This document shows, in pieces, positions 1-64,000 of a stretch of 64,000 nucleotides of DNA. Source of the stretch: Sipunculus nudus (taxonomy: Eukaryota; Annelida; Sipuncula; Golfingiida; Sipunculidae); assembly GCA_026874595.1 (NCBI GenBank), contig CM049320.1, positions 48,496,714 through 48,560,713 on the forward strand, read 5' to 3'. Each line of letters begins with the position of its first letter. Positions within the stretch are counted from its first letter, which is position 1. Below the pieces are notes generated by a model that was not told the origin of the DNA, made no database searches, and saw only the letters and a list, made by a program, of their open reading frames with translations. The translations under genes were made by a program, and so were the position numbers.

Positions 1-856
1 CCATCAAAAACTGCTGTGACCTTTACAAGAGCTTGTATTAGTGCATCATAAACTTTTATTAAAAATTGTTTCTTTTTTAAGTTTTTAGATGTCTACCAGA
101 TGACTTGGGCTTCCCAACAGTAATTGGAATCAAAGATGCATAAAATATGTATAGACTATTGATAGTAATATAGTAGACTAAAACCAGGCTAAAGTGCAGG
201 AGACAAAAACATAGACATCTCTTATTGTCAGGGTTCCATGGCTGTTTGTTATACTTTATAAACAGATCACACATTAAATAAGAAGATCACTGGAATACTC
301 TTTGGATATATGGTCCATCAAAATGCAGTAAATGTAAGACATCTTTGCCAGATTGATGTTTAGGATTCTGTTTGATTGTCTGGGAACACATCACATGTAC
401 ATATATTAAGATGGTCAATAAAATAACAGTAAATACAAGATTCCCTGGCCAGTTAGGCATAAGGCATTCTCTTTCATTTTCTGAAAATTGTATACACACA
501 AAATACCCAGGTTTCCTCGTGCTAAACATTTTTCAAACTGATCTGAGTTTTTTCTCTTTTTATCCCCATTTTAACTGCATTATGAAAGACTAATTCAGCC
601 ATCTTGTAGATCACATGATCATGTTTTTCTGTGAGGTCATTATTTATTCATTTCCCTGTCCTTGATTACTACCCGCTGAACCTCAAGTACATGGCTATAT
701 CACCTAGCACCGTGCTTCTGAACACATCGTACCTCATGAGTTATTAGTCAATGGGGGATCAATTAAGTAACTATTAGGTTTTCAGGTTCATGGGTGTGGA
801 TGTAAATCTATTCAAAAGGGTACTTTTAATGGAAATAATAAAGCTATATCTTTCCG

Positions 857-1145
857 TATGGCTGTGTGTGTGATGTTGATGGGGTGGTGCTGTTTGTATG
901 CTGTGTGTGTGATGTGGATGGGGTGGTGCAGTTTGTATGGCTGTGTGTGTGATGTTGATGGGGTGGTGCAGTTTGTATGCTGTGTGTGTGATGTTGATGG
1001 GGTGGTGCTGTTTGTATGGCTGTGTGTGTGATGTTGATGGGGTGGTGCTGTTTGTATGGCTGTGTGTGTGATGTTGATGGGGTGGTGCAGTTTGTATGGC
1101 TGTGTGTGTTATGTCAATGGGGTGGTGCTGTTTGTATGGCTGTTT
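857..1145. repeat. 40-bp minisatellite, about 7 copies
   Basis: Units of 39-40 bp run head to tail, built on GTATGGCTGTGTGTGTGATG followed by TTGATGGGGTGGTGCTGTTT. Copies differ at a few sites, such as GTGCTG versus GTGCAG and presence or absence of one G. The minus-strand open frame across it is a by-product of the repeat. Confidence 0.9.
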
Positions 1146-31700: not shown

Positions 31701-34700
31701 TGACCACCATTGAGATGACCTTTAACCCCCTGAACAGGGACGGTATCTTGCTGTACAGTGGCCAATCAGATGACGGTAAAGGGGACTTTATTTCTTTGAG
31801 CCTGGTGGATGGATACGTTGTGTTCAGGTTAGTCATCATGTTATTATTTTCCTCAGATTTCTGTTTTTCTTTATTACATTGTTTAAAAATACCTGTCAAC
31901 AGGAGGATATGACCAGAAATGCATGCCCTGAAATGTTGATTGCTCTGAAAATTAGCAAGACTGATGATCCTGGATAGTTTTGCCTTGTAAAGACGTCGTT
32001 ACCATAGAAATGGTAAGCATCCATCTGTCTGAGATATGTTGTTAGCCCAATAACATACATTCACCAGACTCGCACCATTGTTGCATCTTATGAAGGGCTA
32101 GGTTAAATTAGAATATGGATGACCATGACACATTTTTCTAGGTCCATGATTTTGTTAAAATAATGTTAATGCAATAACTTGAAAAGGGTTACAGGCACAG
32201 TCACCAGACCCGAACCATTGAGTGTCTCTTGATTTTCCGGCTGATAATCAAAACCTTTCTGGATGCTACTTCCATGGTAAGCTAGGAAGAAATCAGACCT
32301 TCTCCGAAGATTACTGTTAAATACTTGGTCTGGTCTCATAACAATTGAAAAGTCTGCCTAAAGGTTCAGCATGTATAATATTCAGAAAAGATAAAATGAC
32401 ATAGTGTAATGTTTTAATTTATAGGTATGATCTTGGAAGTGGCCCATCTAAATTGGTTTCCAAGGAAACACTCACATTGGGAAAGCCTCACAAGGTCATA
32501 GCAAAGAGAACAGGATCCGCGGGGTCACTACAGGTTGATAACCAGGAAGAGGTCAAAGGTCAGAGTCCAGGAACACTCAAGTCATTGAACCTCCTTACTC
32601 CATTGTACATGGGATATGTGCCGACCCAGATACAAGTGTAAGTAAACCATTAAGAAATCATGACCAAGATAGAAGTGTAAGTAAACCAACAAGAATTCAT
32701 AAACCAGATACAAGTGTAAGTAAACCATCATGAAATCATAAACCAGATCCAAGTGTAACTAAACCAACAAGAAATCATAACCCAGATACAAGTGTAAGTA
32801 AACCAACATGAAATCATAACCCAGATACAAGTGAAAGTAAACCAACAAGAAATCATAACCCAGATACAAGTGTAAGTAAACCAACATGAAATCATAAACC
32901 AGATACAAGTGTAAGTAAACCAACCTGAAATCATAACCCAGATACAAGTGAAAGAAAACCAACAAGAAATCATGACCCAGATACAAGTGTAAGTAAACCA
33001 ACAAGAAATCATAACCCAGATACAAATGTAAGTAAACCAACATGAAATCATAACCCAGATACAAGTGTAAGTAAACCAACCTGAAATCATAACCCAGATA
33101 CAAGTGTAAGTAAACGAACATGAAATCATAACCCAAATACAAGTGTAAGTAAACCAACATGAAATCATAACCCAGATACAAGTGTAAGTAAACCAACATG
33201 AAATCATAACCCAGATACAAGTGTAAGTAAACCAACATGAAATCATAACCCAGATACAAGTGTAAGTAAACCAACATGAAATCATAACCCAGATACAAGT
33301 GTAAGTAAACCAACATGAAATCATAACCCAGATACAAGTGTAAGTAAACCAACATGAAATCATAACCCAGATACAAGTGTAAGTAAACCAACATGAAATC
33401 ATAACCCAGATACAAGTGTAAGTAAACCAACATGAAATCATAACCCAGATACAAGTGTAAGTAAACCAACATGAAATCATAACCCAGATACAAGTGTAAG
33501 TAAACCAACATGAAATCATAACCCAGATACAAGTGTAAGTAAACCAACATGAAATCATAACCCAGATACAAGTGTAAGTAAACCAACATGAAATCATAAC
33601 CCAGATACAAGTGTAAGTAAACCAACAAGAAATCATAACCCAGATACAAGTGTAAGTAAACCAACAAGAAATCATAACCCAGATACAAGTGTAAGTAAAC
33701 CAACAAGAAATCATGACCCAGATACAAGTGTAAGTAAACCAACAAGAAATCATGACCCAGATACAAGTGTAAGTAAACCAACCTGAAATCATAACCCAGA
33801 TACAAGTGTAAGTAAACCAACATGAAATCATAACCCAGATACAAGTGAAAGTAAACCAACAAGAAATCATAACCCAGATACAAGTGTAAGTAAACCAACA
33901 TGAAATCATAAACCAGATACAAGTGTAAGTAAACGAACATGAAATCATAACCCAGATACAAGTGTAAGTAAACGAACATGAAATCATAACCCAGATACAA
34001 GTGTAAGTAAACGAACATGAAATCATAACCCAGATACAAGTGCAAGTAAACGAACATGAAATCATAACCCAGATACAAGTGTAAGTAAACCAACATGAAA
34101 TCATAACCCAGATACAAGTGTAAGTAAACCAACATGAAATCATAACCCAGATACAAGTGTAAGTAAACCAACATGAAATCATAACCCAGATACAAGTGTA
34201 AGTAAACCAACATGAAATCATAACCCAGATACAAGTGTAAGTAAACCAACATGAAATCATAACCCAGATACAAGTGTAAGTAAACCAACATGAAATCATA
34301 ACCCAGATACAAGTGTAAGTAAACCAACATGAAATCATAACCCAGATACAAGTGAAAGTAAACCAACCTGAAATCATAACCCAGATACAAGTGTAAGTAA
34401 ACCAACAAGAAATCATAACCCAGATACAAGTGTAAGTAAACCAACAAGAAATCATGACCCAGATACAAGTGTAAGTAAACCAACCTGAAATCATGACCCA
34501 GATACAAGTGTAAGTAAACCAACCTGAAATCATGACCCAGATACAAGTGTAAGTAAACCAACAAGAAATCATAACCCAGATACAAGTGTAAGTAAACGAA
34601 CATGAAATCATAACCCAGATACAAGTGTAAGTAAACGAACATGAAATCATAACCCAGATACAAGTGTAAGTAAACGAACATGAAATCATAACCCAGATAC

Positions 34701-37700
34701 AAGTGTAAGTAAACCAACCTGAAATCATAACCCAGATACAAGTGTAAGTAAACCAACCTGAAATCATAACCCAGATACAAGTGTAAGTAAACCAACATGA
34801 AATCATAACCCAGATACAAGTGTAAGTAAACCAACCTGAAATCATAACCCAGATACAAGTGTAAGTAAACCAACCTGAAATCATAACCCAGATACAAGTG
34901 TAAGTAAACCAACAAGAAATCATGACCCAGATACAAGTGTAAGTAAACCAACAAGAAATCATGACCCAGATACAAGTGTAAGTAAACCAACAAGAAATCA
35001 TGACCCAGATACAAGTGTAAGTAAACCAACCTGAAATCATAACCCAGATACAAGTGTAAGTAAACCAACAAGAAATCCTAACCCAGATACAAGTGTAAGT
35101 AAACCAACATGAAATCATAAACCAGATACAAGTGTAAGTAAACCAACCTGAAATCATAACCCAGATACAAGTGTAAGTAAACCAACAAGAAATCATGACC
35201 CAGATACAAGTGTAAGTAAACCAACAAGAAATCATGACCCAGATACAAGTGTTAGTAAACCAACAAGAAATCATGACCCAGATACAAGTGTAAGTAAACC
35301 AACCTGAAATCATAACCCAGATACATGTGTAAGTAAACCAACAAGAAATCATGACCCAGATACAAGTGTAAGTAAACCAACCTGAAATCATAACCCAGAT
35401 ACAAGTGTAAGTAAACCAACAAGAAATCATAACCCAGATACAAGTGTAAGTAAACCAACATGAAATCATAAACCAGATACAAGTGTAAGTAAACCAACCT
35501 GAAATCATGACCCAGATACAAGTGAAAGAAAACCAACCTGAAATCATGACCCAGATACAAGTGTAAGTAAACCAACCTGAAATCATAACCCAGATACAAG
35601 TGTAAGTAAACGAACATGAAATCATAACCCAGATACAAGTGTAAGTAAACGAACATGAAATCATAACCCAGATACAAGTGTAAGTAAACGAACATGAAAT
35701 CATAACCCAGATTCAAGTGTAAGTAAACGAACATGAAATCATAACCCAAATACAAGTGTAAGTAAACCAACATGAAATCATAACCCAGATACAAGTGTAA
35801 GTAAACCAACATGAAATCATAACCCAGATACAAGTGTAAGTAAACCAACATGAAATCATAACCCATATCCAAGTGTAAGTAAACCAACATGAAATCATAA
35901 CCCAGATCCAAGTGTAAGTAAACCAACATGAAATCATAACCCAGATACAAGTGTAGGTAAACCAACAAGAAATCATAACCCAGATCCAAGTGTAAGTAAA
36001 CCAACAAGAAATCATAACCCAGATCCAAGTGTAAGTAAACCAACAAGAAATCATAACCCAGATCCAAGTGTAAGTAAACCAACATGAAATCATAACCCAG
36101 ATCCAAGTGTAAGTAAACCAACATGAAATCATAACCCAGATCCAAGTGTAAGTAAACCAACATGAAATCATAACCCAGATCCAAGTGTAAGTAAACCAAC
36201 ATGAAATCATAACCCAGATTCAAGTGTAAGTAAACGAACATGAAATTATAACCCAGATACAAGTGTAAGTAAACGAACATGAAATTATAACCCAGATACA
36301 AGTGTAAGTAAACCAACATGAAATCATAACCCAGATACAAGTGTAAGTAAACCAACATGAAATCATAACCCAGATACAAGTGTAAGTAAACCAACATGAA
36401 ATCATAACCCAGATACAAGTGTAAGTAAACCAACATGAAATCATAACCCAGATACAAGTGTAAGTAAACCAACATGAAATCATAACCCAGATACAAGTGT
36501 AAGTAAACCAACATGAAATCATAACCCAGATACAAGTGTAAGTAAACCAACATGAAATCATAACCCAGATACAAGTGAAAGTAAACCAACCTGAAATCAT
36601 AACCCAGATACAAGTGTAAGTAAACCAACAAGAAATCATAACCCAGTACAAGTGTAAGTAAACCAACAAGAAATCATGACCCAGATACAAGTGTAAGTAA
36701 ACCAACCTGAAATCATGACCCAGATACAAGTGTAAGTAAACCAACAAGAAATCATGACCCAGATACAAGTGTAAGTAAACCAACAAGAAATCATGACCCA
36801 GATACAAGTGTAAGTAAACGAACATGAAATCATAACCCAGATACAAGTGTAAGTAAACGAACATGAAATCATAACCCAGATACAAGTGTAAGTAAACCAA
36901 CCTGAAATCATAACCCAGATACAAGTGTAAGTAAACCAACCTGAAATCATAACCCAGATACAAGTGTAAGTAAACCAACCTGAAATCATAACCCAGATAC
37001 AAGTGTAAGTAAACGAACATGAAATCATAACCCAGATACAAGTGTAAGTAAACCAACCTGAAATCATAACCCAGATACAAGTGTAAATAAACCAACATGA
37101 AATCATAACCCAGATACAAGTGTAAGTAAACCAACATGAAATCATAACCCAGATACAAGTGTAAGTAAACCAACATGAAATCATAACCCAGATACAAGTG
37201 TAAGTAAACCAACATGAAATCATAACCCAGATACAAGTGTAAGTAAACCAACATGAAATCATAACCCAGATACAAGTGTAAGTAAACCAACATGAAATCA
37301 TAACCCAGATACAAGTGTAAGTAAACCAACATGAAATCATAACCCAGATACAAGTGAAAGTAAACCAACCTGAAATCATAACCCAGATACAAGTGTAAGT
37401 AAACCAACAAGAAATCATAACCCAGATACAAGTGTAAGTAAACCAACAAGAAATCATGACCCAGATACAAGTGTAAGTAAACCAACCTGAAATCATGACC
37501 CAGATACAAGTGTAAGTAAACCAACCTGAAATCATGACCCAGATACAAGTGTAAGTAAACCAACAAGAAATCATAACCCAGATACAAGTGTAAGTAAACG
37601 AACATGAAATCATAACCCAGATACAAGTGTAAGTAAACGAACATGAAATCATAACCCAGATACAAGTGTAAGTAAACGAACATGAAATCATAACCCAGAT

Positions 37701-40700
37701 ACAAGTGTAAGTAAACCAACCTGAAATCATAACCCAGATACAAGTGTAAGTAAACCAACCTGAAATCATAACCCAGATACAAGTGTAAGTAAACCAACAT
37801 GAAATCATAACCCAGATACAAGTGTAAGTAAACCAACCTGAAATCATAACCCAGATACAAGTGTAAGTAAACCAACCTGAAATCATAACCCAGATACAAG
37901 TGTAAGTAAACCAACAAGAAATCATGACCCAGATACAAGTGTAAGTAAACCAACAAGAAATCATGACCCAGATACAAGTGTAAGTAAACCAACAAGAAAT
38001 CATGACCCAGATACAAGTGTAAGTAAACCAACCTGAAATCATAACCCAGATACAAGTGTAAGTAAACCAACAAGAAATCCTAACCCAGATACAAGTGTAA
38101 GTAAACCAACATGAAATCATAAACCAGATACAAGTGTAAGTAAACCAACCTGAAATCATAACCCAGATACAAGTGTAAGTAAACCAACAAGAAATCATGA
38201 CCCAGATACAAGTGTAAGTAAACCAACAAGAAATCATGACCCAGATACAAGTGTTAGTAAACCAACAAGAAATCATGACCCAGATACAAGTGTAAGTAAA
38301 CCAACCTGAAATCATAACCCAGATACATGTGTAAGTAAACCAACAAGAAATCATGACCCAGATACAAGTGTAAGTAAACCAACCTGAAATCATAACCCAG
38401 ATACAAGTGTAAGTAAACCAACAAGAAATCATAACCCAGATACAAGTGTAAGTAAACCAACATGAAATCATAAACCAGATACAAGTGTAAGTAAACCAAC
38501 CTGAAATCATGACCCAGATACAAGTGAAAGAAAACCAACCTGAAATCATGACCCAGATACAAGTGTAAGTAAACCAACCTGAAATCATAACCCAGATACA
38601 AGTGTAAGTAAACGAACATGAAATCATAACCCAGATACAAGTGTAAGTAAACGAACATGAAATCATAACCCAGATACAAGTGTAAGTAAACGAACATGAA
38701 ATCATAACCCAGATTCAAGTGTAAGTAAACGAACATGAAATCATAACCCAAATACAAGTGTAAGTAAACCAACATGAAATCATAACCCAGATACAAGTGT
38801 AAGTAAACCAACATGAAATCATAACCCAGATACAAGTGTAAGTAAACCAACATGAAATCATAACCCATATCCAAGTGTAAGTAAACCAACATGAAATCAT
38901 AACCCAGATCCAAGTGTAAGTAAACCAACATGAAATCATAACCCAGATACAAGTGTAGGTAAACCAACAAGAAATCATAACCCAGATCCAAGTGTAAGTA
39001 AACCAACAAGAAATCATAACCCAGATCCAAGTGTAAGTAAACCAACAAGAAATCATAACCCAGATCCAAGTGTAAGTAAACCAACATGAAATCATAACCC
39101 AGATCCAAGTGTAAGTAAACCAACATGAAATCATAACCCAGATCCAAGTGTAAGTAAACCAACATGAAATCATAACCCAGATCCAAGTGTAAGTAAACCA
39201 ACATGAAATCATAACCCAGATTCAAGTGTAAGTAAACGAACATGAAATTATAACCCAGATACAAGTGTAAGTAAACGAACATGAAATTATAACCCAGATA
39301 CAAGTGTAAGTAAACCAACATGAAATCATAACCCAGATACAAGTGTAAGTAAACCAACATGAAATCATAACCCAGATACAAGTGTAAGTAAACCAACATG
39401 AAATCATAACCCAGATACAAGTGTAAGTAAACCAACATGAAATCATAACCCAGATACAAGTGTAAGTAAACCAACATGAAATCATAACCCAGATACAAGT
39501 GTAAGTAAACCAACATGAAATCATAACCCAGATACAAGTGTAAGTAAACCAACATGAAATCATAACCCAGATACAAGTGAAAGTAAACCAACCTGAAATC
39601 ATAACCCAGATACAAGTGTAAGTAAACCAACAAGAAATCATAACCCAGTACAAGTGTAAGTAAACCAACAAGAAATCATGACCCAGATACAAGTGTAAGT
39701 AAACCAACCTGAAATCATGACCCAGATACAAGTGTAAGTAAACCAACAAGAAATCATGACCCAGATACAAGTGTAAGTAAACCAACAAGAAATCATGACC
39801 CAGATACAAGTGTAAGTAAACGAACATGAAATCATAACCCAGATACAAGTGTAAGTAAACGAACATGAAATCATAACCCAGATACAAGTGTAAGTAAACC
39901 AACCTGAAATCATAACCCAGATACAAGTGTAAGTAAACCAACCTGAAATCATAACCCAGATACAAGTGTAAGTAAACCAACCTGAAATCATAACCCAGAT
40001 ACAAGTGTAAGTAAACCTACCTGAAATCATAACCCAGATACAAGTGTAAGTAAACCAACCTGAAATCATAACCCAGATACAAGTGTAAATAAACCAACCT
40101 GAAATCATAACCCAGATACAAGTGTAAGTAAACCAACCTGAAATCATAACCCAGATACAAGTGTAAGTAAACCAACATGAAATCATAACCCAGATACAAG
40201 TGTAAGTAAACCAACATGAAATCATAACCCAGATACAAGTGTAAGTAAACCAACATGAAATCATAACCCAGATACAAGTGTAAGTAAACCAACAAGAAAT
40301 CATGACCCAGATACAAGTGTAAGTAAACCAACAAGAAATCATGACCCAGATACAAGTGTAAGTAAACCAACAAGAAATCATGACCCAGATACAAGTGTAA
40401 GTAAACCAACAAGAAATCATGACCCAGATACAAGTGTAAGTAAACCAACCTGAAATCATAACCCAGATACAAGTGTAAGTAAACCAACAAGAAATCCTAA
40501 CCCAGATACAAGTGTAAGTAAACCAACATGAAATCATAAACCAGATACAAGTGTAAGTAAACCAACCTGAAATCATAACCCAGATACAAGTGTAAGTAAA
40601 ACAACAAGAAATCATGACCCAGATACAAGTGTAAGTAAAACAACAAGAAATCATGACCCAGATACAAGTGTTAGTAAACCAACAAGAAATCATAACCCAG

Positions 40701-43700
40701 ATACAAGTGTAAGTAAACCAACCTGAAATCATAACCCAGATACAAGTGTAAGTAAACCAACAAGAAATCATAAACCAGATACAAGTGTAAGTAAACCAAC
40801 ATGAAATCATAAACCAGATACAAGTGTAAGTAAACCAACCTGAAATCATGACCCAGATTCAAGTGTAAGTAAACGAACATGAAATCATAACCCAGATACA
40901 AGTGTAAGTAAACCAACATGAAATCATAACCCAGATACAAGTGTAAGTAAACCAACATGAAATCATAACCCAGATCCAAGTGTAAGTAAACCAACATGAA
41001 ATCATAACCCAGATACAAGTGAAAGTAAACCAACATGAAATCATAACCCAGATACAAGTGAAAGTAAACCAACATGAAATCATAACCCAGATACAAGTGT
41101 AAGTAAACCAACAAGAAATCATGACCCAGATACAGGTGTAAGTAAACCAACAAGAAATCATGACCCAGATACAAGTGTAAGTAAACCAACCTGAAATCAA
41201 CCGAGATACAAGTGAAAGTAAACCAACAAGAAATCATAACCCAGATACAAGTGAAAGTAAACCAACATGAAATCATAACCCAGATACAAGTGTAAGTAAA
41301 CCAACATGAAATCCTAACCCAGATACAAGTGTAAGTAAACGAACATGAAATCCTAACCCAGATACAAGTGTAAGTAAACCAACATGAAATCATAACCCAG
41401 ATACAAGTGTAAGTAAACCAACCTGAAATCATAACCCAGATACAAGTGTAAGTAAACCAACCTGAAATCATAACCCAGATACAAGTGAAAGAAAACCAAC
41501 AAGAAATCATGCCCCAGATACAAGTGTAAGTAAACCAACAAGAAATCATAACCCAGATACAAGTGTAAGTAAACCAACCTGAAATCATAAACCAGATACA
41601 AGTGTAAGTAAACCAACCTGAAATCATAACCCAGATACAAGTGTAAGTAAACCAACCTGAAATCATAACCCAGATACAAGTGAAAGTAAACCAACAAGAA
41701 ATCATGACCCAGATACAAGTGTAAGTAAACCAACATGAAATCATGACCCAGATACAAGTGTAAGTAAACCAACATGAAATCATAACCCAGATACAAGTGT
41801 AGGTAAACCAACAAGAAATCATAACCCAGATCCAAGTGTAAGTAAACCAACAAGAAATCATAACCCAGATCCAAGTGTAAGTAAACCAACATGAAATCAT
41901 AACCCAGATCCAAGTGTAAGTAAACGAACATGAAATCATGCCCCAGATACAAGTGTAGGTAAACCAACATGAAATCATAACCCAGATACAAGTGTAAGTA
42001 AACCAACAAGAAATCATGACCCAGATACAAGTGTAAGTAAACCAACAAGAAATCATGACCCAGATACAAGTGTAAGTAAACCAACAAGAAATCATGACCC
42101 AGATACAAGTGTAAGTAAACCAACCTGAAATCATAACCCAGATACAAGTGTAAGTAAACCAACCTGAAATCATAACCCAGATACAAGTGTAAGTAAACCA
42201 ACATGAAACCATAACCCAGATACAAGTGTAAGTAAACCAACCTGAAAACATAACCCAGATACAAGTGAAAGAAAACCAACCTGAAATCATGACCCAGATA
42301 CAAGTGTAAGTAAACCAACAAGAAATCATAACCCAGATACAAGTGTAAGTGAACGAACATGAAATCATAACCCAGATACAAGTGCAAGTAAACCAACATG
42401 AAATCATAACCCAGATACAAGTGCAAGTAAACCAACATGAAATCATAACCCTGATACAAGTGCAAGTAAACCAACATGAAATCATAACCCAGATACAAGT
42501 GTAAGTAAACCAACATGAAATCATAACCCAGATACAAGTGTAAGTAAACCAACCTGAAATCATAACCCTGATACAAGTGTAAGTAAACCAACATGAAATC
42601 ATAACCCAGATACAAGTGTAAGTAAACCAACATGAAATCATAACCCAGATACAAGTGTAAGTAAACCAACCTGAAATCATAACCCAGATACAAATGTAAG
42701 TAAACCAACATGAAATCATAACCCAGAAACAAGTGTAAGTAAACCAACATGAAATCATAACCCAGATACAAGTGTAAGTAAACCAACATGAAATCATAAC
42801 CCCGATACAAGTGTAGGTAAACCAACATGAAATCATAACCCCGATACAAGTGTAGGTAAACCAACATGAAATCATAACCCAGATACAAGTGTAAGTTAAC
42901 CAACATGAAATCATAAACCAGATACAAGTGTAAGTAAACCAACCTGAAATCATAACCCAGATACAAGTGAAAGAAAACCAACAAGAAATCATGACCCAGA
43001 TACAAGTGTAAGTAAACCAACATGAAATCATGACCAAGATTCAAGTGTAAGTAAACCAACATGAAATCATAACCCAGATACAAGTGTAGGTAAACCAACA
43101 AGAAATCATAACCCAGATCCAAGTATAAGTAAACCAACAAGAAATCATAACCCAGATCCATATGTAAGTAAACCAACATGAAATCATAACCCAGATCCAA
43201 GTGTAAGTAAACGAACATGAAATCATAACCCAGATACAAGTGTAAGTAAACCAACATGAAATCATAACCCTGATACAAGTGCAAGTAAACCAACATGAAA
43301 TCATAACCCAGATACAAGTGTAAGTAAACCAACATGAAATCATAACCCAGATACAAGTGTAAGTAAACCAACCTGAAATCATAACCCTGATACAAGTGTA
43401 AGTAAACCAACATGAAATCATAACCCAGATACAAGTGTAAGTAAACCAACATGAAATCATAACCCAGATACAAGTGTAAGTAAACCAACCTGAAATCATA
43501 ACCCAGATACAAATGTAAGTAAACCAACATGAAATCATAACCCAGATACAAGTGTAAGTAAACCAACATGAAATCATAACCCAGATACAAGTGTAAGTAA
43601 ACCAACATGAAATCATAACCCCGATACAAGTGTAGGTAAACCAACATGAAATCATAACCCCGATACAAGTGTAGGTAAACCAACATGAAATCATAACCCA

Positions 43701-46700
43701 GATACAAGTGTAAGTAAACCAACATGAAATCATAAACCAGATACAAGTGTAAGTAAACCAACCTGAAATCATAACCCAGATACAAGTGAAAGAAAACCAA
43801 CAAGAAATCATGACCCAGATACAAGTGTAAGTAAACCAACATGAAATCATGACCAAGATTCAAGTGTAAGTAAACCAACATGAAATCATAACCCAGATAC
43901 AAGTGTAGGTAAACCAACAAGAAATCATAACCCAGATCCAAGTATAAGTAAACCAACAAGAAATCATAACCCAGATCCATATGTAAGTAAACCAACATGA
44001 AATCATAACCCAGATCCAAGTGTAAGTAAACGAACATGAAATCATAACCCAGATACAAGTGTAAGTAAACCAACATGAAATCATAACCCAGATACAAGTG
44101 TAAGTAAACCAACATGAAATCATAACCCAGATACAAGTGTAAGTAAACCAACATGAAATCATAACCCAGATACAAGTGAAAGTAAACCAACAAGAAATCA
44201 TAACCCAGATACAAGTGTAAGTAAACCAACATGAAATCATAACCCAGATACAAGTGTAAGTAAACCAACATGAAATCATAACCCAGATACAAGTGTAAGT
44301 AAACCAACATGAAATCATAACCCAGATACAAGTGTAAGTAAACCAACATGAAATCATAACCCAGATACAAGTGAAAGTAAACCAACAAGAAATCATAACC
44401 CAGATACAAGTGTAAGTAAACCAACATGAAATCATAACCCAGATACAAGTGTAAGTAAACCAACCTGAAATCATAACCCAGATACAAATGTTAGTAAACC
44501 AACATGAAATCATAACCCAGATACAAGTGTAAGTAAACCAACATGAAATCATAACCCAGATACAAGTGTAAGTAAACCAACATGAAATCATAACCCCGAT
44601 ACAAGTGTAGGTAAACCAACATGAAATCATAACCCAGATACAAGTGTAAGTAAACCAACATGAAATCATAAACCAGATACAAGTGTAAGTAAACCAACCT
44701 GAAATCATAACCCAGATACAAGTGAAAGAAAACCAACAAGAAATCATGACCCAGATACAAGTGTAAGTAAACCAACATGAAATCATGACCAAGATTCAAG
44801 TGTAAGTAAACCAACATGAAATCATAACCCAGATACAAGTGTAGGTAAACCAACAAGAAATCATAACCCAGATCCAAGTATAAGTAAACCAACAAGAAAT
44901 CATAACCCAGATCCATATGTAAGTAAACCAACATGAAATCATAACCCAGATCCAAGTGTAAGTAAACGAACATGAAATCATAACCCAGATACAAGTGTAA
45001 GTAAACCAACATGAAATCATAACCCAGATACAAGTGTAAGTAAACCAACATGAAATCATAACCCAGATACAAGTGTAAGTAAACCAACATGAAATCATAA
45101 CCCAGATACAAGTGAAAGTAAACCAACAAGAAATCATAACCCAGATACAAGTGTAAGTAAACCAACATGAAATCATAACCCAGATACAAGTGTAAGTAAA
45201 CCAACCTGAAATCATAACCCAGATACAAGTGAAAGAAAACCAACCTGAAATCATAACCCAGATACAAGTGTAAGTAAACCAACATGAAATCATAACCCAG
45301 ATACAAGTGTAAGTAAACCAACATGAAATCATAACCCAGATACAAATGTAAGTAAACCAACATGAAATCATAACCCAGATACAAGTGTAAGTAAACCAAC
45401 ATGAAATCATAACCCAGATACAAGTGTAAGTAAACCAACATGAAATCATAACCCAGATACAAGTGTAGGTAAACCAACATGAAATCATAACCCAGATACA
45501 AGTGTAAGTAAACCAACATGAAATCATAAACCAGATACAAGTGTAAGTAAACCAACCTGAAATCATAACCCAGATACAAGTGTAAGTAAACGAACATGAA
45601 ATCATAACCCAAATACAAGTGTAAGTAAACCAACATGAAATCATAACCCAGATACAAGTGTAAGTAAACCAACATGAAATCATAACCCAGATACAAGTGT
45701 AAGTAAACCAACATGAAATCATAACCCAGATACAAGTGTAAGTAAACCAACATGAAATCATAACCCAGATACAAGTGTAAGTAAACCAACATGAAATCAT
45801 AACCCTGATACAAGTGTAAGTAAACCAACATGAAATCATAACCCAGATACAAGTGTAAGTAAACCAACATGAAATCATAACCCAGATACAAGTGTAAGTA
45901 AACCAACATGAAATCATAACCCCGATACAAGTGTAAGTAAACCAACATGAAATCATAACCCCGATACAAGTGTAAGTAAACCAACATGAAATTATAACCC
46001 AGATACAAGTGCAAGTAAACCAACATGAAATCATAACCCAGATACAAGTGCAAGTAAACGAACATGAAATCATAACCCAAATACAAGTGTAAGTAAACCA
46101 ACATGAAATCATAACCCAGATACAAGTGTAAGTAAACCAACATGAAATCATAACCCAGATACAAGTGTAAGTAAACCAACATGAAATCATAACCCTGATA
46201 CAAGTGTAAGTAAACCAACATGAAATCATAACCCTGATACAAGTGTAAGTAAACCAACATGAAATCATAACCCAGATACAAGTGTAAGTAAACCAACATG
46301 AAATCATAACCCAGATACAAGTGTAAGTAAACCAACATGAAATCATAACCCAGATACAAATGTAAGTAAACCAACATGAAATCATAACCCAGATACAAGT
46401 GTAAGTAAACCAACATGAAATCATAACCCAGATACAAGTGTAAGTAAACCAACATGAAATCATAACCCAGATACAAGTGTAAGTAAACCAACATGAAATC
46501 ATAACCCCGATACAAGTGTAAGTAAACCAACATGAAATCATAACCCAGATACAAGTGTAAGTAAACCAACATGAAATCATAACCCAGATTCAAGTGTAAG
46601 TAAACCAACCTGAAATCATAACCCAGATACAAGTGAAAGAAAACCAACAAGAAATCATGACCCAGATACAAGTGTAAGTAAACCAACATGAAATCATGAC

Positions 46701-49700
46701 CCAGATACAAGTGTAAGTAAACCAACATGAAATCATAACCCAGATCCAAGTGTAAGTAAACCAACAAGAAATCATTACCCAGATCCAAGTGTAAGTAAAC
46801 CAACAAGAAATCATGACCCAGATCCAAGTGTAAGTAAACCAACATGAAATCATAACCCAGATCCAAGTGTAAGTAAACCAACATGAAATCATAACCCAGA
46901 TCCAAGTGTAAGTAAACCATCATGAAATCATAACCCAGATACAAGTGTAAGTAAACCAACATGAAATCATAACCCAGATACAAGTGTAAGTAAACCAATC
47001 TGAAATCATGACCCAGATACAAGTGAAAGAAAACCAACAAGAAATCATGACCCAGATACAAGTGTAAGTAAACCAACAAGAAATCATGACCCAGATACAA
47101 GTGTAAGTAAACCAACCTGAAATCATAACCCAGATACAAGTGTAAGTAAACCAACCTGAAATCATGACCCAGATACAAGTGTAAGTAAACCAACAAGAAA
47201 TCATGACCCAGATACAAGTGTAAGTAAACCAACAAGAAATCATGACCCAGATACAAGTGTCAGTAAACCAACAAGAAATCATAACCCAGATACAAGTGTA
47301 AGTAAACGAACATGAAATCATAACCCAGATTCAAGTGTAAGTAAACCAACATGAAATCATAACCCAGATACAAGTGTAAGTAAACCAACATGAAATCATA
47401 ACCCAGATACAAGTGTAAGTAAACCAACATGAAATCATAACCCAAATACAAGTGTAAGTAAACCAACATGAAATCATAACCCAGATACAAGTGTAAGTAA
47501 ACCAACATGAAATCATAACCCAGATACAAGTGTAAGTAAACCAACATGAAATCATAACCCAGATACAAGTGTAAGTAAACCAACATGAAATCATGACCCA
47601 GATACAAATGTAAGTAAACCAACATGAAATCATAACCCAGATACAAGTGTAAGTAAACCAACATGAAATCATAACCCAGATACAAGTGTAAGTAAACCAA
47701 CATGAAATCATAACCCAGATACAAGTGTAAGTAAACCAACAAGAAATCATGACCCAGATACAAGTGTAAGTAAACCAACAAGAAATCATGACCCAGATAC
47801 AAGTGTAAGTAAACCAACCTGAAATCATGACCCAGATACAAGTGTAAGTAAACCAACAAGAAATCATAACCCAGATACAAGTGTAAGTAAACGAACATGA
47901 AATCATAACCCAGATACAAGTGTAAGTAAACGAACATGAAATCATGACCCAGATACAAGTGTAAGTAAACGAACAAGAAATCATAACCCAGATACAAGTG
48001 TAAGTAAACCAACCTGAAATCATAACCCAGATACAAGTGTAAGTAAACCAACCTGAAATCATAACCCAGATACAAGTGTAAGTAAACCAACCTGAAATCA
48101 TAACCCAGATACAAGTGTAAGTAAACCAACCTGAAATCATAACCCAGATACAAGTGTAAGTAAACCAACATGAAATCATAAACCAGATACAAGTGTAAGT
48201 AAACCAACCTGAAATCATGACCCAGATACAAGTGAAAGAAAACCAACCTGAAATCATGACCCAGATACAAGTGTAAGTAAACCAACAAGAAATCATAACC
48301 CAGATACAAGTGTAAGTAAACCAACATGAAATCATAACCCAGATTCAAGTGTAAGTAAACGAACATGAAATCATAACCCAAATACAAGTGTAAGTAAACC
48401 AACATGAAATCATAACCCAGATACAAGTGTAAGTAAACCAACATGAAATCATAACCCAGATACAAGTGTAAGTAAACCAACATGAAATCATAACCCAGAT
48501 ACAAGTGTAAGTAAACCAACATGAAATCATAACCCAGATACAAGTGTAAGTAAACCAACATGAAATCATAACCCAGATACAAGTGTAATTAAAACCAACA
48601 TGAAATCATAAACCAGATACAAGTGTAAGTAAACCAACATGAAATCATGACCCAGATACAAGTGAAAGAAAACCAACCTGAAATCATGACCCAGATACAA
48701 GTGTAAGTAAACCAACAAGAAATCATAACCCAGATACAAGTGTAAGTAAACCAACATGAAATCATAACCCAGATTCAAGTGTAAGTAAACGAACATGAAA
48801 TCATAACCCAGATTCAAGTGTAAGTAAACCAACATGAAATCATAACCCAGATACAAGTGTAAGTAAACCAACATGAAATCATAACCCAGATACAAGTGTA
48901 AGTAAACCAACATGAAATCATAACCCAGATACAAGTGTAAGTAAACCAACATGAAATCATAACCCAGATACAAGTGTAAGTAAACCAACATGAAATCATA
49001 ACCCAGATACAAGTGTAAGTAAACCAACATGAAATCATAACCCAGATACAAGTGTAAGTAAACCAACATGAAATCATAACCCAGATACAAGTGTAAGTAA
49101 ACCAACATGAAATCATAACCCAGATACAAGTGTAAGTAAACCAACATGAAATCATAACCCAGATACAAGTGTAAGTAAACGAACATGAAAATCATAACCC
49201 AGATACAAGTGTAAGTAAACCAACATGAAATCATAACCCAGATACAAGTGTAAGTAAACCAACATGAAATCATAACCCAGATACAAGTGTAAGTAAACCA
49301 ACATGAAATCATAACCCAGATACAAGTGTAAGTAAACCAACATGAAATCATAACCCAGATACAAGTGTAAGTAAACCAACATGAAATCATAACCCAGATA
49401 CAAGTGTAAGTAAACCAACATGAAATCATAACCCAGATACAAGTGTAAGTAAACCAACATGAAATCATAACCCAGATACAAGTGTAAGTAAACCAACAAG
49501 AAATCATGACCCAGATATAGGTGTAAGTAAACCAACAAGAAATCATGACCCAGATACAAGTGTAAGTAAACCAACCTGAAATCATAACCCAGATACAAGT
49601 GTAAGTAAACCAACCTGAAATCATAACCCAGATACAAGTGTAAGTAAACCAACCTGAAATCATAACCCAGATACAAGTGTAAGTAAACCAACCTGAAATC

Positions 49701-52700
49701 ATAACCCAGATACAAGTGTAAGTAAACCAACCTGAAATCATAACCCAGATACAAGTGTAAGTAAACCAACATGAAATCATAACCCAGATACAAGTGTAAG
49801 TAAACCAACATGAAATCATGACCCAGATACAAATGTAAGTAAACCAACCTGAAATCATAACCCAGATACAAGTGTAAGTAAACCAACATGAAATCATAAC
49901 CCAGATACAAGTGTAAGTAAACAAACAAAAAAACATGACCCAGATACAAGTGTAAGTAAACCAACAAGAAATCATAACCCAGATACAAGTGTAAGTAAAC
50001 CAACAAGAAATCATAACCCAGATACAAGTGTAAGTAAACCAACAAGAAATCATAACCCAGATACAAGTGTAAGTAAACCAACAAGAAATCATAACCCAGA
50101 TACAAGTGTAAGTAAACCAACCTGAAATCATAACCCAGATACAAGTGTAAGTAAACCAACCTGAAATCATAACCCAGATACAAGTGTAAGTAAACCAACC
50201 TGAAATCATAACCCAGATACAAGTGTAAGTAAACCAACCTGAAATCATAACCCAGATACAAGTATAAGTAAACCAACCTGAAATCATGACCTAGATACAA
50301 GTGTAAGTAAACCAACATGAAATCATAACCCACATACAAGTGTGAGTAAACCAACATGAAATCATTACCCAGATACAAGCATCAGTATTGCCATGTATCA
50401 GTGATGAAATATGTGAGGAAAAAGGTCATGATGGTTTTCTTAATAACGTATTAGATATCATCAGATAAAGATTAGAATGATGGTATTTTAGGCTACAAAG
50501 TTGGATACAGCAGTGACTGAAAGCATTTTGTTATGTATTTTTGAACATTGACTGCAGACAACATCATCAGGATGTATATAGTAAGGATAGCTGTGCTCAT
50601 GTCCTAAATTTTAGAACTTTTGTCCAAAAGTTCTTGCCAGCATCTATCTTTTTTCTTGTATCTGGTGTCAGGAAATTCTCATTTGTGATTTGTTTTTCAG
50701 AATTTTCAAGGATATAGGTACAGACATGGGCTTTGTTGGTTGTATAGAAGACTTGCGCATTGAAGGAGCCAATACTGACAGGGTGTATGACCTTGCGTAT
50801 CCAACGGCAACAGACATCATACAAGGCTGGGATATTGGTAGGTGTGATATAATGAATACAGTTTGACAGATAAGATTAGATAAATAATTAAAGAAATATA
50901 CATAATAGTTGCACTCTTTTCAGCCTGATCAGAGAAACAGTTTATCATTTTGTTAAAAATTACAGAAGGCAGTAATATTAAGTTATGACTAGAAGTTTTA
51001 AACTTTAAATGAAAGAAATGTTAAAAATATTCACAAATTAATAGAACCTTTGAAAAGATAGTTTCTCTGGTGACTGTTAGGTGGCTGTGAAATTCTTAGA
51101 ACGATTCACTGGGCTTTGACTTAGGTGATCATAGAGGTCAGGTTAAACTAGCATAAAGCCTGGTAAGTGCAGGTATGGTTCCTTCTATTTTTATGCCCCC
51201 GCCACAAAGTGGCCAGGGCATATAGTTTTACCCATGTCCATCATTCCGTCATTCCGAAATCAAACAGTTGTACGGACTTTTTTTTTGCAGTGCCTGCAGA
51301 TATTGGCCTGATTTTTGGTGTGTGGGCAGATAATGACCAGTTACAGATCGAGTTCGCGTTTCGTCCCGGTTGAGCTACTTTTGAGCGTTTTACGGCTCCT
51401 AAACTTAGAAAAATTCATGAAATATAGAAATTTTCATGACAAATACACATGTACGGACTTTTTTTTGCAATGCCTGCAGATATTGGCCTGATTTTTGGTG
51501 TGTGGGCAGATAATGACCAGTTACAGATGGAGTTCGCGTTTCGTCCCGATTGACCTACTTTTGGGCGTTTTACGGCTCCTAAACTTAGAAAATTTCATGA
51601 AATATAGAAATTTTCATGACAAATACACATGTACGTACTTTTTTTTGCAATGCCTGCAGATATTGGCCTGATTTTTGGTGTGTGGGCAGATAATGACCAG
51701 TTACAGATCGAGTTCGCGTTTCGACCCGATTGACCTACTTCTTGGTGTTTTATGACTCCTAAACTTAGAAAATTTCATGAAAAATAGAAATTTTCATGAC
51801 AAATACACATGTACAGACTTTTTTTTGCAATGCCTGCAGATGTTGGCCTGATTTTTGGTGTGTGGGCAGATAATGACCAGTTACAGATCGAGTTCGCGTT
51901 TCGTCCCGGTTGACCTACTTTTGAGCCTTTTACGGCCCCTAAACTTAGAAAATTTCATGAAAAATAGAAATTTTCATGACAAATACACATGTACGGACTT
52001 TTTTCCGCAATGCCTGCAGATATTGGCCTGATTTTTGGTGTGTGGACAGATAATGACCAGGTACAGATCGAGTTAGCGTTTCGTCCTGGTTGACCTACTT
52101 TTGACCGTTTTACGGCTCCTAAACTTAGAAAAATTCATGAAAAATAGAAATTTTCATGACAAATACACATGTACAGCTGTTTTTAGCCCTCAGCTCATAG
52201 GCTGATGGGCTATTGTCGTCACCCAAGGTGTCAGTCTGTCCATCTGTCTGTCCGGTGTGTGTATGTCTGTCCGTCCGTCCGTCCGTCCGTTCCGCGTCTG
52301 TTAACTTTTACCTTGTGAGCGGGATATCTCTAAAAGGATTCACCATTGGAATTTTATTTCATCAGTGAAGATGTATATCCATAAAATCTCGGTCAAGTTC
52401 GAAGATGGGTGACCTTGACCCATTTTTCTACATTTTAGAGCTGATTATAGAAAAACACTCAGAAGTTTATATCTTAGGAACCATTGTGTGGATTTTCACA
52501 AAACTTACTTGGGACTGATGGTCTGTATGTGCTGCACAATTTTGGTGGCGCCACCTGCAATTTCTGATTTTTTAATGAAATTTTATCGGATTTTTTCTCA
52601 ATTTTGGCCTTTTGTGCAGGATATCTCCAAAGGTATTCAACACAGGAACTTCACTTTTCAGTGTTATTGCATTATATTGACAAAATCTTGGTCAAGTTCA

Positions 52701-55700: not shown

Positions 55701-58700
55701 GAATAAGTGATGTACAGTCCACAAACAAGCTACATTAAATGACTGATCAGTTAGAATAAGTGATGTACAGTCCACAAACAAGCTACATTAAATGACTGAT
55801 CAGTTAGAATAAGTGATGTACAGTCCACTAACAAGCTACATAAAATGACTGATCAGTTAGAATAAGTGATATACAGTCCACAAACAAGCTACATTAAATG
55901 ACTGATCAGTTAGAATAAGTGATGTACAGTCTACTAACAAGCTACATAAAATGACTGATCAGTTAGAATAAGTGATGTACAGTCCACAAACAAGCTACAT
56001 AAAATGACTGATCAGTTAGAATAAGTGATGTACAGTCCACAAACAAGCTACATTAAATGACTGATCAGTTAGAATAAGTGATGTACAGTCTACTAACAAG
56101 CTACATTAAATGACTGATCAGTGGACTACATAATGGATGAAGAACCCTTTAAGATGTGATGTTAAAATTGTCACAAAACACAAACCATTAGCAGGGAAGA
56201 TCCCTCTGAATAATTAGTGACATTATGGGGTTATGAAGGTGGGAGAAAACATAGCATTGTGACAAGAGTAACCTTTTGGGCTTATCATTAATCAAAACAT
56301 ATTACTATGACAGGTGAAAACTGTGAAATAGACCTGACACAGCCCTGCAGCTCCAAGCCCTGCCAGGCTGGTGGCAAGTGTATTGACCACAAAAACAGCA
56401 CCTTCAGCTGTATCTGCTCACAGGAAAGACGAGGGAAACTCTGTGATAAAGGTAAGGTCACATCTGATAATCATAATAATACACCTGACCAAGGTAATAA
56501 ATTACACCTGACCAAGGTAACGTCATATTACATGTGGCCAAGGTAACATCATATTACACCTGACCAAGGTAATGTCATATTACAGTTGACCAAGGTCATG
56601 TCATGTAACACCTGATCAAGGTAAAATCATATTACACATGACCAAGGTAACATCTTATTACATCTGACCAAGGTAATATCCTAGTACACCTGACCAAGGT
56701 AATATCATAACACACCTGACCAAGGTAACATTATAATACACCTGACCAAGGTTATATCTTATTACACCTGACCAAAGTTACATCATAATACACCTGACCA
56801 AGGTAACGTCTTATTACACCTGACCAGGGTAACATCATAATACACCTGACAAAGGTAATTTCATAATACACCTGACCAGGGTAATGTCATATTACACCTG
56901 ACCAAGGTAACATCATAATACACCTGAAAAAGGTAATATCATAGTACACCTGACCAAGTTACATCATAATACACCTTACCAAGGTTACTAGATATTACAC
57001 CTGACCAAGGTTATATCATAGTACACCTGGCCAAGGTAACATAATGGTACACCTGACCAAAGTAACATGATATTACACCTGACCAAGGTGACATCATATT
57101 ACTCCTGACCAAGGTAATATCATAGTACACCTGGTCAAGCTAAAATCATATTACACATGACCAAGGTAACATCTTATTACATCTGACCAAGGTAACATCA
57201 TATTACAGCTGATCAATGGTAAATTCATAATACACCTGACCAAGGTAACATCATATTACAGCTGATCAATGGTAAATTCATAATACACCTGACCAAGGTA
57301 ACATCATAGTACACCTGATCAAGATAACATGATATTACACCTGACCAAGGTAACATCATATTACACGTGACCAAGGTAACATCATAGTACATCTGACCAA
57401 GGTAACATGATATTAAACCTGACCAAGGTAACATCATAATTCACCTGACCAAGGTAACATCATAATACACCTGACCAAGGTAACATCATAATACACCTGA
57501 CCAAGGTAACATTATAGTACACCTGACCAAAGAGTACACCTGACCAAAGTAACATGATATTACACCTGACCAAGGTAACATCATATTACCCCTGACCAAG
57601 ATAACATCATAGTACACCTGACCAAGGTAACATGATATTAAACCTGACCAAGGTAACATCATAATACACCTGACCAAGGTAATATCATAGTACACCTGAC
57701 CAAGTTACATCATAATACACCTAATCAAGGTTACTAGATATTACACCTGACCAAGGTGACACCTTATTACACCTGACCAAGGTAATATCATAGTACACCT
57801 GGCCAAGGTAACATTATAGTACACCTGACCAAAGTAACATGATATTACACCTGACCAAGGTAACATCATATTACACCTGACCAAGGTAATATCATAGTAC
57901 ACCTGACCAAGTTAACATGATATTACACCTGACCAAGGTAACATCATATTTCACCTGACCAAGGTAACATCTTAATACACCTGACCAAGGTAATATCATA
58001 ACACACCTGACCAAGGTAACAATATAATACACCTGACCAAGGTTATATCTTATTACTCCTGACCAAAGTTACATCATAATACACCTGACCAAGGTAACAT
58101 CTTATTACACCTGACCAGGGTAACATCATAAAACACCTGACCAAGTTAACATGATATTACACCTGACCAAGGTAACATCATATTTCACCTGACCAAGGTA
58201 ACATCATAATACACCTGACCAAGGTAATATCCTAGTACACCTGACCAAGGTAATATCATAACACCCCTGACCAAGGTAACATTATAATACACCTGACCAA
58301 GGTTATATCTTATTACACCTGACCAAAGTTACATCATAATACACCTGACCAAGATAACGTCTTATTACACCTGACCAGGGTAACATAATAATACACCTGA
58401 CCAAGGTAATTTCATAATACACCTGACCAGGGTAATGTCATATTACACCTGACCAAGGTAACATCATAATACACCTGACCAAGGTAAGGTCATATTACAC
58501 CTGACCCAGGTAACATCATATTACACCTGACCAAGGTAACATCATATTACACCTGACCAAGATAACATCATAGTACACCTGACCAAGGTAACATGATATT
58601 AAACCTGACCAAGGTAACATCATAATACACCTGACCAAGGTAATATCATAGTACACCTGACTAAGGTGACATCACACATGATAATCATCGTTTAACCCCT

Positions 58701-61021: not shown

Positions 61022-61059
61022 GTATGTGGTACATATACAGACCTAATAAACTCCTCTAA

Positions 61060-64000
61060 ATGAAGGATATCATCAGGGGTACATACAAAACCCTCTAAAT
61101 CAGGGGTACAAACAAAACCCTCCAAATCAGGGGTACATACAAAACCCTCCAAATCAGGGGTACATACAAAACCCTCCAAATGAGGGGTACAAACAAAACC
61201 CTCCAAATGAGGGGTACATACAAAACCCTCCAAATGAGGGGTACAAACAAAACCCTCCAAATGAGGGGTACATACAAAACCCTCCAAATGAGGGGTACAA
61301 ACAAAACCCTCCAAATGAGGGGTACATACAAAACCCTCCAAATGAGGGGTACAAACAAAACCCTCCAAATGAGGGGTACATACAAAACCCTCCAAATGAG
61401 GGGTACATACTAAACCCTCCAAATCAGGGGTACAAACAAAACCCCCCAAATGAGGGGTACATACAAAACCCTCCAAATGAGGGGTACATACTAAACCCTC
61501 CAAATCAGGGGTACAAACAAAACCCTCCAAATGAGGGGTACATACAAAACCCTCCAAATGAGGGGTACATACTAAACCCTCCAAATCAGGGGTACAAACA
61601 AAACCCTCCAAATGAGGGGTACAAACAAAACCCTCCAAATGAGGGGTACATACAAAACCCTCCAAATGAGGGGTACATACTAAACCCTCCAAATCAGGGG
61701 TACAAACAAAACCCTCCAAATGAGGGGTACATACAAAACCCTCCAAATGAGGGGTACATACTAAACCCTCCAAATCAGGGGTACAAACAAAACCCTCCAA
61801 ATGAGGGGTACAAACAAAACCCTCCAAATGAGGGGTACATACTAAACCCTCCAAATCAGGGGTACAAACAAAACCCTCCAAATGAGGGGTACAAACAAAA
61901 CCCTCCAAATGAGGGGTACATACTAAACCCTCCAAATCAGGGGTACAAACAAAACCCTCCAAATGAGGGGTACATACAAAACCCTCCAAATGAGGGGTAC
62001 ATACTAAACCCTCCAAATCAGGGGTACAAACAAAACCCTCCAAATGAGGGGTACATACAAAACCCTCCAAATGAGGGGTACATACTAAACCCTCCAAATC
62101 AGGGGTACAAACAAAACCCTCCAAATGAGGGGTACATACAAAACCCTCCAAATGAGGGGTACATACTAAACCCTCCAAATCAGGGGTACATACAAAACCC
62201 TCCAAATCAGGGGTACATACAAAACCCTCCAAATCAGGGGTACAAACAAAACCCTCAAATCAGGGGTACATACTAAACCCTCCAAATCAAATCAGGGGTA
62301 AATACAAAACCCTCCAAATCAGGGGTACAAACAAAACCCTCCAAATCAGGGGTACATACAAAAACCCTCCAAATCAAATCAGGGGTAAATACAAAACCCT
62401 CCAAATCAGGGGTACAAACAAAAACCCTCCAAATCAGGGGTACATACAAAACTCTCCAAATCAGGGGTACATACAAAACCCCCAAAATCAGGGGTACATA
62501 CAAAACCCCCCAAATCAGGGGTACAGACAAAACCCTCCAAATCAGGGGTACATACTAAACCCTCCAAATCAGGGGTACATACAAAACCCTCCAAATCAGG
62601 GGTACATACAAAACCCCCAAAATCAGGGGTACATACAAAACCCCCAAAATCAGGGGTACACACAAAACCCTCCAAATCAGGGGTACATACAAAACCCCCA
62701 AAATCAGGGGTACATACAAAACCCCCCAAATCAGGGGTACAGACAAAACCCCCCAAATCAGGGGTACATACTAAACCCTCCAAATCAGGGGTACAAACAA
62801 AACCCTCCAAATGAGGGGTACATACAAAACCCCCCAAATCAGGGGTACATACAAAAACCCTCCAAATCAAATCAGGGGTAAATACAAAACCCTCCAAATC
62901 AGGGGTACAAACAAAAACCCTCCAAATCAGGGGTACATACAAAACTCTCCAAATCAGGGGTACATACAAAACCCCCAAAATCAGGGGTACATACAAAACC
63001 CCCCAAATCAGGGGTACAGACAAAACCCTCCAAATCAGGGGTACATACAAAACCCTCCAAATCAGGGGTACATACAAAACCCTCCAAATCAGGGGTACAT
63101 ACAAAACCCCCAAAATCAGGGGTACAAACAAACCCCCCCCCCCCCCCCCCCCCCAAATCAGGGGTACACACAAAACCCTCCAAATCAGGGGTACAAACAA
63201 AACCCTCCAAATCAGGGGTACAAACAAAACCCTCCAAATCAGGGGTACATACAAAAACCCTCCAAATCAGGGGTACATAGAAAACCCCCCAAATCAGGGG
63301 TACATACAAAACCCTCCAAATCAGGGGTACATACAAAACCCTCCAAATCAGGGGTACATACAAAACCCCAAAAATCAGGGGTACATACAAAACCCCCAAA
63401 ATCAGGGGTACAGACAAAACCCTCCAAATCAGGGGTACATACAAAACCCTCCAAATCAGGGGTACATACAAAACCCCCAAAATCAGGGGTACAAACAACC
63501 CCCCCCCCCCCAAATCAGGGGTACATACAAAACCCTCCAATTCAGGGGTACATTCAAAATCCCCCAAATCAGGGGTACATACAAAACCCTCCAAATCAGG
63601 GGTACATACAAAACCCCCCAAATCAGGGGTACATACAAACCCCCCCCCAAATCAGGGCTACAATCAAAACCCCCCAAATCAGGGGTACAGACAAAACCCT
63701 CCAAATCAGGGGTACATACAAAACCCTCCAAATCAGGGGTACATACAAAACCCCCAAAATCAGGGGTACAAACAAACCCCCCCCCCCCCCCCAAATCAGG
63801 GGTACATACAAAACCCTCCAATTCAGGGGTACATACAAAATCCCCCAAATCAGGGGTACATACAAAACCCTCCAAATCAGGGGTACATACAAAACCCCCC
63901 AAATCAGGGGTACATACAAACCCCCCCAAATCAGGGCTACAATCAAAACCCCCCAAATCAGGGGTACAGACAAAACCCTCCAAATCAGGGGTACATACAA
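61060..64000. repeat. 27-bp minisatellite derived from the exon 21 donor, about 109 copies, open at window end
   Basis: Unit: AAATCAGGGGTACATACAAA then ACCCTCC (27 bp). The first part, AATCAGGGGTA, is identical to the exon 21 junction (AATCAGGG then GTA). Early copies alternate GGTACAAAC and GGTACATAC as 54-bp dimers (61150-61390), then as 81-bp trimers with CATACTAAAC. Later copies carry C runs of 9-22 bases. The long minus-strand frames (up to 443 codons) arise because 27 is divisible by three. Confidence 0.95.

Follow-up and report, generated by a model that had tools for sequence, protein, structure and literature searches.

The stretch of DNA analysed here, hereafter the window, comprises 64,000 nucleotides of Sipunculus nudus (assembly GCA_026874595.1, contig CM049320.1, positions 48,496,714-48,560,713, forward strand) and carries on its plus strand an agrin-like gene, recognised from open reading frames (ORFs) and a domain search as a series of Kazal, laminin-EGF, EB, EGF and laminin-G exons. 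The intron that follows the exon of the laminin-G domain LG1 is filled by a 39-bp minisatellite, the unit of which contains the end of that exon together with the beginning of the intron, including the 5' splice site. Very probably, this array is a boundary-spanning minisatellite of the kind named "mirage" in amphioxus, i.e. the product of a tandem duplication across an exon-intron boundary, followed by a large and neutral expansion.

The 39-bp array and its host exon

The joined LG1 matches the Pfam family Laminin_G_2 (E-value 6.4e-27) and, among solved chains, its top match is an agrin (8s9p_A; E-value 4.8e-60). The LG1 exon ends in phase 2 with ATA CAA GT, its last 14 bases being at the same time the exonic part of the first array unit. 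The Tandem Repeats Finder (TRF) call covers one continuous array with a period of 39, 455.3 copies and 95% matches (Table 1), and our own decomposition into units yielded 456 rows, among which 450 are complete 39-mers free of insertions and deletions. The first row, consisting of ACCCAGATACAAGT on the exon side and GTAAGTAAACCATTAAGAAATCATG on the intron side, matches the consensus exactly over 14 exon bases (32624-32637) and 12 intron bases, and is identical with it at 35 of 39 positions over the whole unit; the second unit adjoins it without a gap. An earlier note on this DNA had described about 455 units running on from the exon boundary without interruption, which agrees with both the TRF call and the position of the second unit, and had given the identity as 15 exon bases plus 12 intron bases. 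The 14 exon and 12 intron bases stand, but the fifteenth exon base, a G, is only a minority variant at the last position of the unit (82 of 456 rows). The same note had placed GTAAGT in most units and wanted them counted exactly: the hexamer is present in 394 of the 455 rows having a readable donor, and AGTGTAAGT in 380 rows. Local alignment of the exon-intron junction with the unit gave a score of 61, the maximum among 400 background windows being 25, and the 14 exon bases would match by chance in the exact register with a probability of about 4^-14 (by arithmetic).

Concerning the interior of the array, 74 consecutive units recur identically 77 units (approximately 3.0 kb) downstream, with matching TRF rows at 35743-36553 and 38745-39555, which suggests a recent change. 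At the 5' edge the first four units differ from the consensus by 4, 4, 2 and 4 changes, compared with a mean of 1.18 in mid-array, the divergence of the exon-side units being that expected of an edge left unhomogenised. The 3' edge is less clear, its last eight complete units showing 1, 1, 1, 1, 1, 3, 1 and 3 changes. It should be noted that long antisense ORFs (up to 1045 amino acids) cross the array because the 39-bp unit is a multiple of three; they are repetitive, and a coding repeat or an antisense gene was therefore rejected.

Origin of the array and the use of its donors

The search for the unit in the whole 1.43-Gb genome was made with a 24-base core and exact matches only. It returned 268 copies, all of them located in the agrin array of the window, and 0 in reverse, so that a dispersed satellite, the finding named in the earlier note as the one that would speak against a boundary origin, is rejected at zero mismatches. 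The exon tail, moreover, lies within the laminin-G alignment to 8s9p_A, where VPT-QIQVIFKDI faces VPEdQAAVALERT of the chain's first domain; the second domain of the same chain scores slightly higher (VPTQIQ versus APDF-S). The tail is thus probably old coding sequence and, since it belongs to the laminin-G domain, the LG1 exon most likely seeded the array. The amplification of an exon-intron boundary, as already proposed in that note, gains support from both the confinement of the core and the aligned exon tail.

The reverse order of events, in which the array would have arisen elsewhere, or within the intron, and reached the exon only later, the donor being captured from the unit, appears very unlikely. 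Gene conversion could equally make the exon tail identical to the array. However, the laminin-G alignment to agrin includes the tail, the units next to the exon belong to the most divergent rather than the most homogenised ones, no exact copy of the unit core exists elsewhere in the genome, and in other genes (ENOSF1-like, fn3, WD40; see below) it is database-supported coding sequence that is repeated.

According to the boundary-spanning origin preferred here, a 39-bp stretch, composed of 14-15 bases from the end of the LG1 exon and the 24-25 bases that open the intron, would have been tandemly duplicated. On the intron side the copies would then have multiplied through slippage, unequal exchange and the duplication of blocks, of which one, 3 kb long, is nearly fresh, and the exon-side edge would have escaped homogenisation. 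The agrin mRNA would survive because the exon-proximal donor, being the first in order and tied to the exon, is the one used, so that the additional GTAAGT sites may be regarded as passengers. The duplication steps, the donor choice and the neutrality are all what we infer from the sequence.

The consequences of donor choice can be followed by translation. If the first donor (CAAGT/GTAAGT, phase 2) is joined to the acceptor preceding position 50701, LG1 stays open, whereas joining the second or the third donor instead gives ...QIQV followed directly by a stop codon. With all donors further along, the first stop would be the same, just as the earlier note had stated for any donor downstream of the exon-proximal one, and such transcripts would therefore presumably be lost by nonsense-mediated decay. 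The exon-proximal donor scores 6.2 bits with a donor scoring matrix and ranks ninth among the 12 placed agrin donors. The array thus puts the choice of a 5' splice site to a severe natural test, with hundreds of near-identical donors in a row and a protein expected from the first only; it is of special interest with regard to RNA because one productive donor faces hundreds of unproductive twins.

A different role for the donors would be that of a functional U1 platform, the GTAAGT sites loading U1 small nuclear ribonucleoprotein on the nascent transcript and thereby blocking premature polyadenylation or tuning the agrin output via the array length. The 394 GTAAGT sites occur within 17.8 kb, and the one U1 gene read, out of at least 42 matches in this genome, begins with the canonical ATACTTACCTG, so the donor positions +1 to +6 can pair; binding of U1 over the array is accordingly possible. 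The T at position -1, however, cannot pair with U1. The U1 small nuclear RNA has at least 42 matches, arranged in two tandem clusters on opposite strands (C6:50256640-50368881 and C6:88238231-88297588), with a spacing of mostly 2.8-2.9 kb.

The hexamers related to polyadenylation can be read both ways. AATAAA and ATTAAA are scarce in the array (2 and 1 versus 45 and 49 in the remaining 46 kb of the window), as a platform that suppresses polyadenylation might lead one to expect, but AGTAAA, which we take to be a variant polyadenylation signal, is abundant there (423 versus 17 elsewhere in the window), and both the scarcity and the abundance follow from the composition of the unit. In almost all units of the array, AGTAAA and the donor overlap.

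Conservation of the donors also argues against the platform. The donor hexamer of the agrin array has a divergence of 0.027, compared with a unit mean of 0.031, and 24 of the 39 hexamer windows are as conserved or more conserved, so that there is no sign of the donors being kept; the earlier note had allowed both for a tuning of agrin output and for simple tolerance. In the 26-bp and 27-bp arrays of the same gene (see below) the donor-like hexamer diverges more than the average. Judged by hexamer divergence, there is no signal of selection on donors in three of the four arrays tested and an unexceptional one in the fourth, which is the ENOSF1-like array. In addition, 61 of the 455 agrin donors are altered, including a donor-dead GAAAGT/GAAAGA class that has spread to 27 copies. 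A U1 platform in the agrin intron is therefore regarded as highly improbable, and a U1 function of the array is unsupported by the sequence. Hardly any credence is given to the broader proposal of a U1-loading intron, in which about 400 donors would hold U1 along 18 kb and suppress polyadenylation, that at AGTAAA included, the balance between productive and stop-bearing agrin mRNA would be set by the allele length, and the ENOSF1-like array would provide another case; if true, it would make giant boundary arrays a genome-wide regulatory device.

Several points weigh against the neutral boundary-spanning origin. The exon tail sits in a weakly conserved loop, and its later conversion by the array can formally still be accommodated. 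The ancestral form of the intron is judged from this genome only, and the copy number, taken from one assembly, could contain an assembly artefact. The survival of the mRNA would depend on the presumed use of the exon-proximal donor. The donor hexamer of the ENOSF1-like array diverges by 0.006, the average being 0.033, although 13 of the 45 windows are as good and the value is hence unexceptional. Finally, in three of the six tandem-donor arrays fetched from elsewhere in the genome (L079/L086, L080 and L081) no exon was recognised by eye at the edge.

Further arrays in the gene and boundary arrays elsewhere in the genome

The agrin gene contains further tandem arrays. Twelve of its arrays were aligned to nearby junctions against 400 background windows, and three of them, the 39-bp array not included, were re-run together with a 37-mer array against 600 windows with the array bases left out. 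The 27-bp array that follows the LG2 exon has AATCAGGGGTA in common with the exon end and donor at 61022, and approximately 4 of the 600 windows were as good (0.007), so that it is a suggestive candidate for a second agrin boundary array. For the 26-bp array, the unit of which holds AAGGTAA, approximately 19 of the 600 windows were as good (0.03), and its boundary origin is weakly supported. A 53-mer array next to a donor, at 26105, for which 0 of 400 windows were as good, fell to a weak 0.05 of the 600 windows in the re-run, and the 37-mer array at 10352 showed no boundary resemblance against the 600 background windows. Apart from the 39-, 26- and 27-bp arrays, tandem arrays were seen in the agrin introns at window positions 856-1143, 10352-13651, 14708-16330, 19180-19544, 20464-23690, 26105-26423, 51269-52174, 53623-56122 and 58897-59727; with so many of them, the gene is repeat-rich in general.

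Outside the agrin gene, two routes were followed. The first one used loci chosen by protein family, irrespective of repeats (28 laminin-EGF, 24 fn3 and 26 WD40, i.e. 78 in total). Merging gave 61 segments with a combined length of 214,241 bases, in which 67 donors and 64 acceptors were predicted and 38 arrays with a period of 15-150 were located; 37 of these arrays were left after dropping the agrin segment (T15). The sample is not fully independent because a single 64-kb stretch of C16 holds 17 of the 24 fn3 loci. This route revealed three arrays at donors and one at an acceptor, the latter in a WD40 exon, where the junction reads ...AG/GCCTCGGGTTCCTGGGAC (Table 1). The second route started from arrays with tandem AAGGTAAGT, of which the six among the first 100 of 252 matches, on C1-C4 only, were all fetched; two are situated at a clear exon end (L083 and L085) and one at a possible exon end (L082).

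One array of the second route follows an exon of an ENOSF1-like gene, which ends with ...CVMADGCYQVPK/GTAAGT, also given as VIEFVDHLHEHFVSPCVMADGCYQVPK/GTAAGT. The best match of this exon among solved chains is a mandelate racemase-like protein (E-value 6e-07), ENOSF1 itself being found with an E-value of 0.007. The upper half of the array was delimited from sequence and the lower half only from spaced pattern matches. Its unit is similar to the 45 coding bases at the end of the exon, with AAAG/GTAAGT at most junctions; since the exon-side edge units are open in frame, translation into a 15-residue repeat is conceivable in principle. Based on the boundary arrays at other genes, the agrin array is not unique in kind in this genome; it is merely the largest one seen.

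Table 1 Features of the agrin-like gene and boundary arrays at other genes (a slash marks a splice junction; plain coordinates refer to the window)
Feature	Position	Strand	Unit or junction	Basis or remark
Agrin LG1 exon (exon 15 in the numbering of the earlier note)	32425..32637	+	acceptor ...TATAG/G	ORF; acceptor; Laminin_G_2; frame
Exon-proximal 5' splice site, inferred authentic donor	32638..32643	+	GTAAGT	LG1 frame kept into exon 50701
39-bp minisatellite	32624..50379	+	455.3 copies, 394 with GTAAGT	TRF and unit decomposition
Probable recent internal duplication	34106..40000 (approximate)	+	74 units	unit-string comparison; matching TRF rows
Next agrin exon	50701..50837	+	acceptor ...TTTTTCAG/AATTTTC	ORF; frame
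26-bp array, 20 bp downstream of the donor (56452) of the EGF exon	56472..58674	+	26 bp	unit holds AAGGTAA
27-bp array after the LG2 exon	61072..64000	+	27 bp	shares AATCAGGGGTA with exon end/donor at 61022; runs off the window
fn3 exon-end array			86 bp x 3; ...TSPVVVETQP/GTACAT	family-locus route
Exon-end array, Ig-like by eye			64 bp x 3; ...AEFTVTVSG/GTAAGA	coding by reading frame only
Donor-abutting array			49 bp x 2.8	family-locus route
WD40 acceptor-spanning array (L057)	C5:2650123-2653236	-	61 bp x 24	repeats codons ASGSWD at exon start
ENOSF1-like exon-end array (L084, L085)	C4:24479403-24488365		45-bp units	approximately 8.9 kb
Exon-end array			42-bp units; ...PPTPKPRLQ/GTATGT	coding by reading frame only

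The recurrence of such arrays raises the possibility that 5' splice sites are preferred starts of minisatellites in this genome, i.e. that a mutational bias or a donor-specific process is involved. In its favour, tandem AAGGTAAGT triplets gave 48+204 matches in comparison with 28+15 for the reversed control, and donor-spanning or donor-abutting arrays are present at several exons. The matches are, however, not independent, 84 of the 100 listed (of 252) coming from one array. Moreover, the donor of a seed exon falls in the first period of only 2 of the 37 arrays (0.54 expected, P=0.096) and the acceptor in the last period of 1 of the 37 (0.52 expected, P=0.40), the third donor array (T17) being outside this count because its exon is not among the seed exons. 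Boundary seeding is thus not significantly above chance in the sample, and random starts in a repeat-rich genome suffice well enough; a donor-specific process is considered rather unlikely.

Two further observations concern repeats seen along these routes. The 40-bp array at C1:104719700-104722760 (L079 and L086) carries AAGGTAAGT or AAGGTTAGT in many units, yet its edge showed no recognisable coding exon, and donor-like motifs in arrays therefore need not come from exons. Several tandem repeats with units of 61-302 bp, found at L002, L019, L027, L035 and L085, have GGTGGCGCC or GGTGGCGCCACC in common and represent, perhaps, one dispersed element forming short arrays.

Comparison with known systems

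The earlier note knew of no 5' splice-site satellite of this size, but the kind is in print. In amphioxus, two reports describe mirages as minisatellite-like tandem duplications of exon-intron boundaries, on either side and in several genes (Adh3, the globins BflGb6 and BflGb9, troponin C and PGBD5), with the splice signals often intact; reverse-transcription PCR and the Adh3 data suggest that normal splicing is undisturbed (PMC3087553; PMC3902484). Boundary arrays have also been proposed, in a model, as raw material for new introns (PMC3087553).

The agrin array shares four of the six mirage features (host taxon apart), all those that sequence could show. Its unit spans the exon-intron boundary, with 14 exon and 12 intron bases and the second unit adjoining; many copies carry splice signals; the interior is homogenised and the edge units spared, clearly at the 5' edge and less so at the 3' edge, as in the amphioxus globin mirages; and several genes of the genome are affected, on both the donor side (ENOSF1-like, fn3, Ig-like by eye and PTPKPRLQ) and the acceptor side (WD40). 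Size sets the two apart, the BflGb6 cluster having 3 or 6 units of 150-160 bp, whereas the agrin array has approximately 455 units of 39 bp and fills an 18-kb intron. A further mirage feature is length polymorphism or somatic instability; in the one assembly analysed here, the identical 74-unit block suggests a recent change. The hosts of mirages described so far are cephalochordates. In the present genome at least 141 C1q matches were found, and neither a GFP-family protein nor a molluscan haemocyanin beta-sandwich was retrieved, in searches in which the controls gave no match either. No array of this size was found described in the open-licence papers searched; the scale is thus new and the taxon probably so, while the kind is already known. 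Boundary-spanning minisatellites can therefore grow until they fill an intron, and a single genome can carry them at several genes.

Among human examples, the minisatellite of IFI6 (6-16) likewise offers splice donors in tandem units at an exon end, and two downstream repeat units are reported to serve as donors and to yield isoforms (PMC4526556). In the agrin array, by contrast, any downstream donor would give a stop, so that productive isoforms like those of IFI6 are not predicted. Internal tandem repeats in human segmental duplications are also located at exon-intron boundaries and can alter splicing or create introns (PMC2812944); these are variable repeats of recently duplicated paralogs, in contrast to the giant intron-filling array of agrin. 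The 38-bp variable number tandem repeat in intron 6 of hTERT resembles the agrin array in being an intronic minisatellite of similar unit length. It lies, however, more than 1 kb from the exon junctions and affects splicing without repeated donors, reportedly via RNA:RNA pairing (PMC3948165).

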